A stretch of DNA of 64,000 bases. It comes from Dysgonomonadaceae bacterium PH5-43 (GTDB lineage: Bacteria; Bacteroidota; Bacteroidia; Bacteroidales; Azobacteroidaceae). The DNA lies in the NCBI GenBank assembly GCA_029916745.1, contig JARXWK010000005.1:1-64000 (forward strand), in the 5' to 3' direction. Position 1 is the first letter of the stretch, and the number at the start of each line of letters is the position of its first letter. The notes under the pieces were generated by a model. It ran no database searches. It saw only the letters and a list, made by a program, of their open reading frames with translations, and was not told the DNA's origin. Shown here one piece after another: positions 19,883 to 56,321 of the stretch. The position numbers and the translations under genes are program-made.

Positions 19883-19913
19883 TAATCGAACAGAATTATA
19901 GACAAACAAAGCA

Positions 19914-20897
19914 ATGAAAATAGGCAATATAATATTCGATAAGTATCCTGTATTTTTAGCACCAATGGAAGATGTAACAGATATTTCTTTCAGACTGTTA
20001 TGTAAGAAATTCGGTGCCGATATGGTTTATACCGAATTTGTATCAAGCGATGCTCTTATCCGTAATGTTAATAAAACAAAGGCGAAGTTAGTAGTTTCAG
20101 ACGAAGAACGCCCTGTTGTTATTCAAATATATGGTAAAGACGTCGACACAATGGTTGAAGCCGCACGTATATGCGAAGAAGCTAAACCAGACATTTTAGA
20201 CATCAACTTTGGTTGTCCAGTAAAAAAGATAGCAGGCAAAGGAGCTGGTTCTGGTATGTTACGCACTCCCGAATTAATGCTCGAAATAACTGAGGCTGTT
20301 GTTAAGGCTGTTAACATTCCCGTTACGGTAAAAACACGATTAGGCTGGGATCATAATTCTCTAATAATTACCGACTTAGCCGAAAAGTTACAAGATTGTG
20401 GCATTGCAGCATTAACCATACACGGACGTACACGCTCCCAGATGTACACTGGCGAAGCCGACTGGTCTCTTATTGGTGATATTAAAAATAATCAAAGAAT
20501 ACATATTCCTATAATTGGGAATGGAGATATTACTTCTCCCGAACTATGTAAACGCGCTTTTGATGTTTATGGAGTAGATGCCGTTATGGTTGGTCGTGCA
20601 AGCATTGGGGCACCTTGGATATTTGAAGAAATGAAACACTTTCTAACAACAGGACAACATTCAGAGAAAAAGCCTTTCAATGATTACATCGAAATACTAA
20701 AACAGCAAGTATTAAAAAGTGTAGAACGGTTAGATGAGCGTAGAGGCATACTTCATAGTCGCCGACATATAGCTGCGAGTCCTTTATTTAAAGGCATTCC
20801 TGATTTTAAGTCTACAAAGATTGCTATGCTTAAAGCCAATACTGTCTCGGAATTATTCGACATTATTAACAGAATAGAATCAAATATAGGTTTTTGA
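19914..20897 (+). CDS. dusB: tRNA-dihydrouridine synthase (DusB-like)
   Basis: 327 residues. It reduces uridines in the D-loop of tRNA using FMN and NADPH. LAPMEDVTD (15-23), the catalytic cysteine C101 in NFGCPVKK, GKGAGSG, VTVKTRLGWD, the HGR motif and IIGNGDI all match the family. Assignment to DusB rather than another Dus subtype rests on general similarity, because Bacteroidetes usually carry DusB-type enzymes. It has its own promoter box and is followed by a region rich in small non-coding features. Confidence 0.9.
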   Translation: MKIGNIIFDKYPVFLAPMEDVTDISFRLLCKKFGADMVYTEFVSSDALIRNVNKTKAKLVVSDEERPVVIQIYGKDVDTMVEAARICEEAKPDILDINFGCPVKKIAGKGAGSGMLRTPELMLEITEAVVKAVNIPVTVKTRLGWDHNSLIITDLAEKLQDCGIAALTIHGRTRSQMYTGEADWSLIGDIKNNQRIHIPIIGNGDITSPELCKRAFDVYGVDAVMVGRASIGAPWIFEEMKHFLTTGQHSEKKPFNDYIEILKQQVLKSVERLDERRGILHSRRHIAASPLFKGIPDFKSTKIAMLKANTVSELFDIINRIESNIGF

Positions 20898-20939: not shown

Positions 20940-21051
20940 TTGACATATTAAAAATTAATCTATACTTTTGCAAAGTAGTTTTTTCATAATAGTATTAGAT
21001 TTAAGGTTAACAAAGATTGAATTAGGGAGTTCGTGAGAATTCCCTTTTTTT
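20940..21051 (+). ncRNA. Candidate small RNA with its own promoter and terminator
   Basis: TTGA at 20940-20943 and a perfect -7 box TACTTTTG at 20963-20970, separated by 19 bp, form a good Bacteroidetes promoter. About 50 bases downstream of the expected start near 20977 a hairpin (21025-21032 with 21037-21044, GTGA loop, one G-U pair) is followed by seven T (21045-21051). The transcript would be about 75 nt and has no convincing ORF. It could instead be an attenuator, but no gene follows on this strand. Confidence 0.5.
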
Positions 21052-21091
21052 ATTTATGAGATTTTTTTACATAGACATAATCCATTTCATA

Positions 21092-21215
21092 CTTTGAAAC
21101 GATCCGTTTCACGGTTTGATATAATTCGTTTCACGGTTTGAAAACACTTGTTTCATATAGGTGAAACACTTTGTTTCATACTAATAAACTACCTGTTTCA
21201 TACGGGTGAAACGAC
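21092..21215. repeat. Palindromic repeat array 1 (GAAAC-N5-GTTTC, 22-23 bp period)
   Basis: Six units begin at 21095, 21117, 21139, 21162, 21185 and 21207, with spacings 22, 22, 23, 23 and 22. Most carry TGAAAC, five bases, then GTTTCA. The second unit is degenerate (TGATAT, then AATTC before GTTTC). Array 2 at 55706-55858 has the same early spacing and the same degenerate second unit. The array lies about 200 bp from the gene remnant at 21419. Confidence 0.75.
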
Positions 21216-21221
21216 AGGCAA

Positions 21222-21325
21222 GCAAGAAAAAAGTTAAAAGATAAAAACTAAAAGTTAGCGCAAAGCGAAGCACATAACTCTTAGTTCTTCACTCTTAGTT
21301 CTTAGTTCTAAAATATTGCTGTCCG
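21222..21325. repeat. Short dispersed repeat (third partial copy)
   Basis: An AACTAAAAGTTAGCGCAAAG block is followed by repeated CTCTTAGTTCTT words. Both features recur within the long repeats near 31080-31160 and 48580-48730. Confidence 0.6.
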
Positions 21326-30888: not shown

Positions 30889-31694
30889 AACTGTCATCGT
30901 AGACAACGCTTCGCTCACCTCTCGCTTTATCTCTGGAAACGCGGCACGCCACGTCTCTACTGTGCATTGCGATTGGCTTCGCTTTGCGCTAACTTTTAGT
31001 TTTTAACTCTATCCCCGTAGGCAACGCTTCGCTCGCCGTACGGCTATGGAATTTTTACCCTTTGGGTAACCCTAACTTTTATCTTTTAGTTTTTAACTGC
31101 GAGCTTGCGAGCTTGTCGCTTTGCGCCAACTCTTAGTTCTTCACTCTTAGTTCTTAGTTCAAAAATGCAAAGTCTCACTTAGGGGCTTCTCTCTACTAAG
31201 AGACCCCTGCTCTCTCTTAGTAGATAGGCGAGGTGTCTCTACTAAGAAAGGCGGGGTGCTTTAAGGATAAAGACGATACCGTTCTACTAAGAGCTACATC
31301 GGGTCTCTACTAAGAAACAGCTCGCCTATCTACTAAGAACGACGAGGGGTATCTACTGAGAGAGACAAGGGGTATGTAGTAACAAACAGCTCACCTATCT
31401 ACTAAGAAAGGAAAGGTGTCTCTACTAATAGCGATAAGGGTGTTCTACTAATAGCAACGAAGTGCTTCGCAAGAGAGATAGAGCCGTCCATTTGCCCAGT
31501 CGCTAACTTTTACGCTATTCTCAGAGAGTTAAGTAATTACGGATAGTTGCCTATTGATGCGGTTTGCTTACTCTCTTGCCTTCTCTCTTGAATTAAACAA
31601 AGGGTCGATAATATCAAAATAATAGAGAAAAGAGAAGTATTGTAAAAATAAGTAAGTTGAAAAAATGTCAAGAATTTTGGTGAAATAGAAAAAG
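30889..31694. repeat. Long non-coding interspersed repeat, copy A
   Basis: About 800 bp without a credible gene. It closely matches the reverse complement of 48047-48772, over CCCGTAGGCAACGCTTCGCT, the GCGCAAAGCG block, the CTCTTAGTTCTT words, GCCGTCCATTTG, and the AT-rich end that reaches within 14 bp of the mnmD stop. The middle (about 31185-31460) holds roughly ten copies of CTACTAAGA or its complement every 20-35 bp. Some blocks are in a different order from copy B, so the element has been reshuffled. Confidence 0.85.
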
Positions 31695-41481: not shown

Positions 41482-41489
41482 TACCTTTG
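41482..41489 (+). promoter_or_regulatory. -7 box driving the cobalamin riboswitch operon
   Basis: TACCTTTG, matching TAnnTTTG, lies just before the riboswitch, so transcription should start near 41496. Confidence 0.55.
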
Positions 41490-41494
41490 CAGCC

Positions 41495-41685
41495 ATAAAG
41501 GTTCATACCTCTAAATTCTTAGAGATGGATTAAAAGGGAATCAGGTGAAAATCCTGAACAGTCCCGCTGCTGTAAACTCATAAAAGAGTTCAACATCTAC
41601 TGCCACTGATAGGTGTGCGTTGCACATATAAAACTGTCGGGAAGGCGTTGAACTTATGGAGTAAGTCAGAAGACCTGCCTTTATT
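41495..41685 (+). promoter_or_regulatory. Cobalamin (vitamin B12) riboswitch
   Basis: The leader of the btuB operon shows conserved cobalamin elements in order: a GGGAATCAGGTGAAAATCC-type core, CAGTCCCGCTGCTGTAA, a GCCACTG box, and the B12 box AGTCAGAAGACCTGCC near 41663-41680. In this class, bound adenosylcobalamin hides the ribosome site or stops transcription. No T-tailed terminator is visible before btuB, so control of translation is likelier. Confidence 0.95.
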
Positions 41686-41733
41686 TATATATTTTCAATC
41701 GTTCTCGTGGAAAAGAACATGAAATACTAAAAG

Positions 41734-48046: not shown

Positions 48047-48772
48047 CATTTTTCTATTTCACCTAAATTCTCAACATTTTATCTACTTACTTATTTTTAC
48101 AAGACTTCTCTTTTTTCTATTATTTTGATATTATAGACCCTTTGCGTCATTTAAGAGAGGAGGCAAGATAGTTAGTAAATTACCCCCAATAGGCAACTAT
48201 CTGTAATCCCTTAACTCTCGGAGAGGAACGTAAAAATTCGCGACTGGACAAATGGACGGCTACATCTCTCTTACGAAGCACTTCGCTGCTCTTAATAGAG
48301 CTCTCTCTCCGCTTCTTAGGAGAACACCCTCGTCGCTCTTAGTAGATGGGCGAGCAGGTTGTTACTATATACCCCTTGTCTCTCTCAGTAGATACCCCTC
48401 GTCGTTCTTAGTAGATAGGCGAGCTGTTTCTTAGTAGAGACCCGATGTCGCTCTTAGTATAAACGCCTAATCTCTCTTAGTAGAACCACCCCATCGTTCT
48501 CGGTAGAGAGACCCCGCCGTTCTACTAAGAGACACAAGGGGTCTCTACTAAGAGAGACGACCCTAAGTGAAGCTTTGCATTTTTTGAACTAAGAACTAAG
48601 AGTAAAGAACTAAGAGTTGGCGCAAAGCGAAGCCAATCGCAATGCACAGTAGAGACTGACGTGCCGCGTCTCCAGAGATAAGGCGAGAGGCGAGCAAACT
48701 CGCAGTTAAAAGTTAAAAGTTAGCCGTACGGCGAGCGAAGCGTTGCCTACGGGGACAGGGTGAAGATGACTC
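48047..48772. repeat. Long non-coding interspersed repeat, copy B (inverted relative to copy A)
   Basis: About 725 bp in inverted orientation to 30889-31694. Long blocks match nearly base for base, including the CTACTAAGA-rich centre (about 48290-48560), GCCGTCCATTTG, the GCGCAAAGCG block and CCCGTAGGCAACGC. No credible gene is present, since short frames here are interrupted and have repeat-driven composition. It occupies the gap between the divergent TlpA-like and PBP4 genes. Confidence 0.85.
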
Positions 48773-55644: not shown

Positions 55645-55705
55645 ATTATTCTTATTTCAGTGTAAAGATATAAATTATTTATTACTAAATACTTTCTTCT
55701 CGGCT

Positions 55706-55858
55706 GTTTCAAGCTTTGAAACTACTCGTTTCTCACTTTGATATAATTCGTTTCTCGGCTTGAAACTATTTGTTTCACTTAACTGAAACTACTTGTTTCA
55801 CCTAACTGAAACAACTCGTTTCAACCTAATGAAACAACCTGTTTCACCCGTGTGAAAC
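55706..55858. repeat. Palindromic repeat array 2 (GAAAC-N5-GTTTC, 22-23 bp period)
   Basis: Seven units begin at 55717, 55739, 55761, 55784, 55807, 55830 and 55853, with spacings 22, 22, 23, 23, 23 and 23. A partial half-site precedes them. Each full unit is TGAAAC, five bases, GTTTC, then six or seven bases. The second unit is TGATATAATTCGTTTC, as in array 1. It ends just before the DUF6078 stop codon. Confidence 0.8.
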
Positions 55859-55862
55859 AAAT

Positions 55863-56321
55863 TTAATGGTGAGGAGATACCTGAACGGAGAAGTTATATC
55901 GCTCGATATACTCGTCGAAGACTGGCTCTTTCTCTATCCCTTCTTTGCGGAAAAGGTCGCGAATAAACTCTTGTTGCTCTGGAGTTATAAGATACTCCTT
56001 GTTATATATGCGGTAATAGCGATTGTGTTCAAGGTATCTATGTATTGCCTTCTTTATTCGGTTGTATTTAGTGTGCGGCAAATCGTCGTATAAATGAGAG
56101 ATTCCCAAAGCGTAGCGTAGCTTCTTTATAGGCTCGAAGTATCGGCATTCGCTTTCCGATTTATTAACGGGTGAGGGATTGACTATCTTAAACACTGAAA
56201 CTTCGTCGGGGATTGCTTGTCCGACCTTAAAGCGTAGGCAGCTATCTGATTTCTTACATACTGCGTTCAGACAATGAACGTAACTCTGGGGGACTTCTTT
56301 GTAATCAAATTCTTCTTTCAT
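55863..56321 (-). CDS. DUF6078 family protein
   Basis: 152 residues, cytoplasmic, with paired cysteines near the N-terminus (HCLNAVCKKSDSCLRF) and one in ECRYFEP. The later part (RIKKAIHRYLEHNRYYRIY) is basic and helical. It resembles DUF6078 proteins of Bacteroidales, which have no known function. The cysteines might hold a metal. Its 3' end abuts the palindromic array, which could act on its mRNA or simply lie there. A promoter box is at 56341-56348. Confidence 0.75.
   Translation of the reverse strand: MKEEFDYKEVPQSYVHCLNAVCKKSDSCLRFKVGQAIPDEVSVFKIVNPSPVNKSESECRYFEPIKKLRYALGISHLYDDLPHTKYNRIKKAIHRYLEHNRYYRIYNKEYLITPEQQEFIRDLFRKEGIEKEPVFDEYIERYNFSVQVSPHH

Follow-up and report, generated by a model that had tools for sequence, protein, structure and literature searches.

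DUF6078 genes of Bacteroidales and of a spirochaete plasmid are linked to a phased palindrome array: a probable new system of protein and DNA array

The window, by which we mean the whole stretch of 64,000 nucleotides that was analysed, carries a phased array of short palindromes directly behind a gene of the DUF6078 family, and a second, more degenerate copy of the array elsewhere. The features concerned are as follows.

55706 to 55858, no strand assigned: phased array of seven GTTTC-N7/8-GAAAC palindromes with a period of 22-23 bp
55740 to 55754, no strand assigned: degenerate site GATATAATTCGTTTC, common to many dispersed copies of the array
55863 to 56321, minus strand: DUF6078 gene (152 aa; PF19555, E 3e-45), encoding the proposed cognate protein
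21085 to 21212, no strand assigned: second, more degenerate array copy, intergenic, downstream of gene 19913-20897 (plus strand)

An earlier note on this DNA had described seven palindromic units at steps of 22-23 bp, and the half-site coordinates bear this out, with the second unit degenerate. GTTTC starts at positions 55706, 55728, 55750, 55772, 55795, 55818 and 55841 (steps of 22, 22, 22, 23, 23 and 23 bp), and GAAAC at 55718, 55762, 55785, 55808, 55831 and 55854; the degenerate half-site of the second palindrome is GATAT at 55740. Counted the other way, the array consists of six GAAAC-N5-GTTTC palindromes and two terminal half-sites. Only 4 bp separate the last GAAAC from the DUF6078 stop codon. 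Across the window, GRAAC-N5-GTTYC occurs at seven sites (five in the array and two in the copy near 21.1 kb) versus 0.14 expected, and 0 of 100 dinucleotide shuffles of the window reached this number. The recurring part of the array, as delimited by all-against-all BLAST, is confined to 55691-55868. The note had also held the spacing to be too tight for CRISPR, with good reason: CRISPR repeats are about 24-48 bp long and come with unique spacers of similar length, whereas the whole unit here measures 22-23 bp, with spacers of 5 and 7-8 bp.

DUF6078 genes were collected by protein search alone, blind to the arrays. The eleven genes obtained come from Bacteroides finegoldii, Parabacteroides distasonis (two), Treponema saccharophilum pTS1, six human faecal contigs and the genome G577, and all but the G577 gene are from plasmid and phage-labelled records. 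Gene ends were then scored for a repeat of any sequence with a lag of 22 or 23 bp no more than 150 bp from the stop codon. The strongest period in that stretch was 22 bp for 10 of the 11 DUF6078 genes, which makes DUF6078 itself the constant neighbour that the earlier note had suggested seeking in Bacteroidales; the eleventh gene (L232) has an array at +260 bp. Among 645 gene ends scanned, 11 passed the lag-22/23 test, four of which belong to DUF6078 genes, and the Fisher p value for the linkage is ~1e-15. In most cases the array lies 0-50 bp after the stop codon. Exceptions among DUF6078 genes are L037, which has no 3' array, L165, where the array is on the 5' side, and L184, where it is ~230 bp away. 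When array loci were fetched by pattern, DUF6078 was found adjoining the array in the window and in G422, G416, G558, G476 and G505. On Treponema pTS1, the 3' end of the gene and the array are duplicated together at another place on the plasmid (324 bp, 97% identical; L233:33350-33673). A Pfam count of the 116 genes flanking arrays (210 families, at most 3/116 for any one) nearly missed the link because DUF6078 homologues are few and share only ~30% identity; direct protein search revealed it. DUF6078 and the palindrome array are thus linked, both in Bacteroidales and on a spirochaete plasmid.

DUF6078 proteins are about 140-150 aa long. An eight-member alignment contains four invariant cysteines (C-x4-C-x5-C ... 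C), which suggests a putative zinc site; within it, the L005 and L162 proteins are 67% identical. PF19555 is the only Pfam match above cut-off, and the protein is without a recognised catalytic domain. Searches against PHROGs and PADLOC gave no match, comparison with solved structures gave none beyond chance, and no member was found in IMG/VR. An AlphaFold model built from a two-sequence alignment (mean pLDDT 47) was poor except in its helical C-terminal part; given this model and the lack of a solved relative, we do not claim a DNA-binding fold. The literature searched yielded no paper naming DUF6078, a family of unknown function that now gains a concrete, testable partner.

The geometry of the sites is fixed. 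Among 283 inner gaps (GRAAC to GTTYC) from four genome groups, 278 measure 5 bp; the linker from GTTYC to the next GRAAC is nearly always 7 or 8 bp. The constant inner gap identifies GAAAC-N5-GTTTC, often flanked by T and A, as the rigid unit. Arrays in Bacteroides bouchesdurhonensis (G416) and B. faecalis (G418) occupy the same intergenic places, in flanking alignments that are about 92-97% identical. In seven clean orthologous pairs (L098, L099, L104, L106, L107, L140 and L144), differences fall on 12 of 415 half-site positions (3%) and on 103 of 431 spacer positions (24%), and in the five pairs with both flanks intact the flanks differ at 65 of 787 (8%). Half-sites therefore change at about one third of the rate of flanks and one eighth of that of spacers, a contrast that persists even though choosing half-sites intact in one species understates their change up to twofold. 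Units are gained or lost between the two species in lengths of 22, 44 or 66 bp, and spacer blocks have been swapped outright while the half-sites were kept. Neutral tandem repeats arising by slippage, with no binding protein involved, would also shift in number by whole units. Such repeats would not be expected to hold their half-sites so much more constant than flanks and spacers, to keep one geometry across genera and a spirochaete plasmid, or to be linked to one protein family, and we find this explanation scarcely credible.

Two special arrays in B. bouchesdurhonensis (L097:2668-2729 and L110:2439-2500) contain a 39-bp perfect or near-perfect palindrome. Each has a tyrosine recombinase gene nearby and is followed by conserved sequence. 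We considered the recombinase as a partner of the arrays and rejected it, as it is found beside these two only and does not recur.

The position of arrays relative to genes bears on whether they act as DNA or as RNA. Of 56 arrays between co-directional genes, 37 lie closer to the 3' end of the gene upstream than to the gene downstream; 17 arrays are within 50 bp of such a 3' end compared with 6 near a downstream gene start. Like the location of most DUF6078-linked arrays just past the stop codon, this would be in keeping with an array that functions as RNA in the 3' UTR of DUF6078 and other genes, DUF6078 being an RNA-binding protein; the arrays might then form an RNA regulon or be relatives in spirit of type III toxin-antitoxin repeats. 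However, many arrays lie between genes that converge (31) or diverge (21). The inner spacer and linker show no overall complementarity beyond chance and no excess of G-U over A-C, and in gene orientation GGAAC occurs 35 times versus 45 for GTTCC, the reverse of wobble tolerance. Nothing in the array matches Rfam, the window's only matches being a cobalamin riboswitch and an FopS sRNA. As the arrays show neither complementarity nor wobble asymmetry, we rejected RNA hairpins, and what at first looked like G-U pairing in one of the strands was not upheld. In type III toxin-antitoxin systems the repeats precede the toxin gene. ToxIN resembles the present locus in having a small protein gene beside a tandem repeat array, and PMC8860590 describes its class of repeats as an RNA antitoxin. 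Here, by contrast, the array is downstream of the gene, palindromic at the DNA level and dispersed, and it carries no RNA-pairing signature. Overall, we judge an RNA role for the arrays to be decidedly unlikely.

Arrays are not confined to DUF6078 genes. TGAAAC-N5-GTTTCA occurs at 96 places in the window's 2.54-Mb genome versus 0 in a reversed control, and BLAST with the window array finds about 40-45 dispersed copies. These have their unit order in common, including the degenerate GATATAATTCGTTTC unit, indicating that they are dispersed homologues rather than repeats grown separately. All 30 copies examined are intergenic, one of them overlapping a short ORF call, and most dispersed arrays have no DUF6078 gene alongside. 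Near-identical copies form a young subfamily within larger composite repeats. In a search of 84,980 species genomes, a strict two-site pattern recovered 15 loci, all in Bacteroidales; ten of the genomes behind them hold 3-258 two-unit matches each, and the controls 0, with one exception that has 5. In a survey of one family, 18 genomes out of 151 were positive, representing 6 of its 22 genera, with up to 161 two-unit matches per genome. None of 24 relatives in the window's own genus has arrays of the window's half-site. With few genomes positive and many matches in each, the arrays are patchily spread and high in copy number where present. A mild clustering of arrays toward the origin in G416, estimated from array and parS positions, was not significant. 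Literature searches for the array returned nothing relevant, and we found no description of this large repeat class of gut Bacteroidales.

In several respects the arrays recall REP elements and their RAYT proteins: they are high-copy extragenic palindromes arranged in arrays, patchy among species, with a lineage-specific repeat sequence and a cognate gene that has repeat copies beside it. Rather than a regulator, DUF6078 could be a non-HUH equivalent of RAYT whose enzymatic activity multiplies the arrays, the arrays being selfish or domesticated and their half-sites conserved because the enzyme recognises them. The dispersed homologues of the window's genome, with their common unit order, would follow from such activity, as would the patchy distribution with its high copy numbers, the wholesale spacer swaps and the turnover of 22-bp units within arrays that keep their sites, and the cis array at the DUF6078 gene, placed as REPs are around RAYT genes. 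The protein itself argues otherwise, having no recognised catalytic domain and being unrelated to RAYT by Pfam, and PF01797 (Y1/HUH transposase) was absent from the whole genome of the window, although 5 of 14 control genomes were positive for it. In addition, orthologous arrays keep fixed sites between species with no sign of jumping, and in sampled parts of two P. distasonis records the DUF6078-linked half-site types recur only beside DUF6078, bar isolated GRAAC/GTTYC matches. REPs are described in PMC3733652 as having a GTAG or CGTC tag at one end, which the GTTTC-N7/8-GAAAC-N5 units lack. The arrays also differ in their strict 22-23 bp phasing, their 5-bp half-sites and their place mostly only behind the stop codon. 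Because the Y1 transposase and the tags are both missing, we do not file the array and DUF6078 under REP-RAYT, and we regard a multiplying enzyme as unlikely; if DUF6078 does spread arrays, this would be a new route to extragenic repeats without an HUH transposase.

Around the arrays, composite repeats are abundant (21277-21309, 31129-31155 and 48591-48617), made up of stretches of ACTCTTAGTTCTTC, runs of AAAGTTAAAAGTT and a GGCGCAAAGCGAAG motif; a terminator-like AAAAAGGCTTTCAGCCTTTTTT adjoins the array in other copies. Another dispersed repeat, with a 23-bp period, is present as two inverted copies at 31180-31460 and 48320-48560; its unit, TCTACTAAGA plus 13 bp, is of a different type from the N5 palindrome. 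The FopS sRNA match (RF04319, 56.1 bits) lies at 20975-21054 on the plus strand and ends 30 bp before the second array, and a weaker match in C20 is ~180 bp from an array. With three copies, two of them near an array, we judged FopS to be incidental and rejected it as an array partner. The cobalamin riboswitch (RF00174, 103.6 bits) is at 41482-41696 on the plus strand.

Other DNA-binding proteins were considered as readers of the arrays, with DUF6078 merely a frequent neighbour: ParB, an XRE-type repressor or a nucleoid protein. Some phage contigs (L060-L069 and L071-L076) have the identical palindrome, with the same 8-bp linker, before an XRE-like repressor gene, in the manner of CI/Cro operators, and the array geometry would fit a dimer on a 15-17 bp palindrome. 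These phage operators are two or three sites before the repressor gene, however, neither dispersed nor behind a gene. Arrays have no recurring XRE gene beside them (HTH_18 and TetR_N are each found in 2 of 116 neighbours) and lie near 3' ends. The site geometry of the phage contigs appears to have been reached by convergence, and we set aside 16 of 17 viral-contig matches as apparent phage repressor operators. The GTTTCA/TGAAAC half-site also resembles that of parS, but the array spacings are 5 and 7-8 bp compared with 2 in parS. The arrays are not GTTTCACGTGAAAC-type parS palindromes of 14-16 bp, and a separate single parS was present in all five genomes tested. In the window's genome it reads GTTCCACGTGGAAC, whereas every sampled array half-site reads GAAAC at the variable base; parS being a separate site with another half-site variant, we rejected the ParB/parS reading. 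More generally, the DUF6078 linkage is far above chance and persists where the half-site differs, which leaves another host protein as a very unlikely reader. In plasmid iterons and ParR-parC centromeres, sites of about 11-22 bp are repeated in tandem and in phase next to the gene for the protein that binds them. The present arrays resemble them in adjoining the gene of a putative binding protein and differ in their palindromic sites and tens of chromosomal copies. Among the recurring families listed for the 116 flanking genes there is no Rep or partition NTPase, and with no recurrent replication gene the earlier note's suggestion of iterons finds no support.

We think it rather probable that the DUF6078 gene and its array make up a single module, in which DUF6078 is the cognate, putatively dimeric DNA binder and from which copies have spread. 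The earlier note had proposed operator sites bound in a row by a dimeric protein. The fixed 5-bp gap, the conserved half-sites and the missing RNA signature agree with that proposal, and binding is predicted from the sequence; dispersal and lineage-specific half-sites were not foreseen. DUF6078 dimers would occupy neighbouring sites (in the window, TGAAAC-N5-GTTTCA) along a single face of the DNA, and the cis array would, in some genomes, have given rise to copies in intergenic regions, for the most part close to the 3' ends of genes. Acting in trans, these copies may form a family of extragenic palindromes, like enterobacterial REP/BIME elements. Alternatively, they could serve as platforms whose binding alters DNA structure or read-through at gene ends, or be passengers multiplied with the help of DUF6078. 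Direct binding of the array by DUF6078, and any function, are what we infer from linkage and geometry. An ordinary operator for autoregulation would not be expected behind the stop codon, where the cis array lies. DUF6078 and its arrays are probably a new protein-plus-DNA-array system.

The half-sites at DUF6078 genes, read by eye, vary within a total period that stays at 22. GAAAC-N5-GTTTC is found in the window, L218, L109, L184, L165 and L227, AAAAC-N5-GTTTC in Treponema, and GATAC-N5-GTCTC/GTATC (GATAC-N5-GTMTC) in L162 (G577). With a 4-bp inner spacer there are GAAAC-N4-GTTTC (L224, L229 and L230), AGTAC-N4-GTACT (L226), GGCAA-N4-TTGCC (L228) and GKCAC-N4-GTGMC (L223). On a weakly supported tree of 17 DUF6078 proteins, the choice of a 4- or 5-bp spacer is clustered, requiring 3 changes versus 5.5 when shuffled, and 10-12 of 500 shuffles were as low. 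DUF6078 might found a new class of self-linked DNA-array protein, with a lineage-specific half-site code on a 22-bp scaffold, co-evolution of protein and array and, in some Bacteroidales, a genome-wide binding network of arrays behind genes, a bolder proposition to which we give a little less than an even chance. If DUF6078 reads its array, the natural pairs with differing half-sites would be a set for studying the co-evolution of DNA specificity.

DUF6078 presence and dispersed arrays were compared in four further genomes of the window's genus. The three without DUF6078 had no lag-22/23 array in 495 kb (G216, 99% complete), none in 200 kb (G575, 97% complete) and one in 120 kb (G012, 98% complete); G577, which has the gene and is 51% complete, had ten in 381 kb. 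Most dispersed arrays in G577 (L234-L252) are of AACTT-N5-AAGTT with a 7-bp linker and differ from its DUF6078-linked array of the GATAC type, which shows that half-site types in cis and in trans can disagree. This counter-example is the chief puzzle: the half-complete assembly may lack a second DUF6078, the arrays may have outlived a change in specificity, or another protein may be involved. One G577 array (L234:4297) consists of TCTGTACAGA units. In P. distasonis, a 22-bp-period array of CGTATATACG palindromes (L295:15269) lies between convergent genes and has no link to DUF6078.
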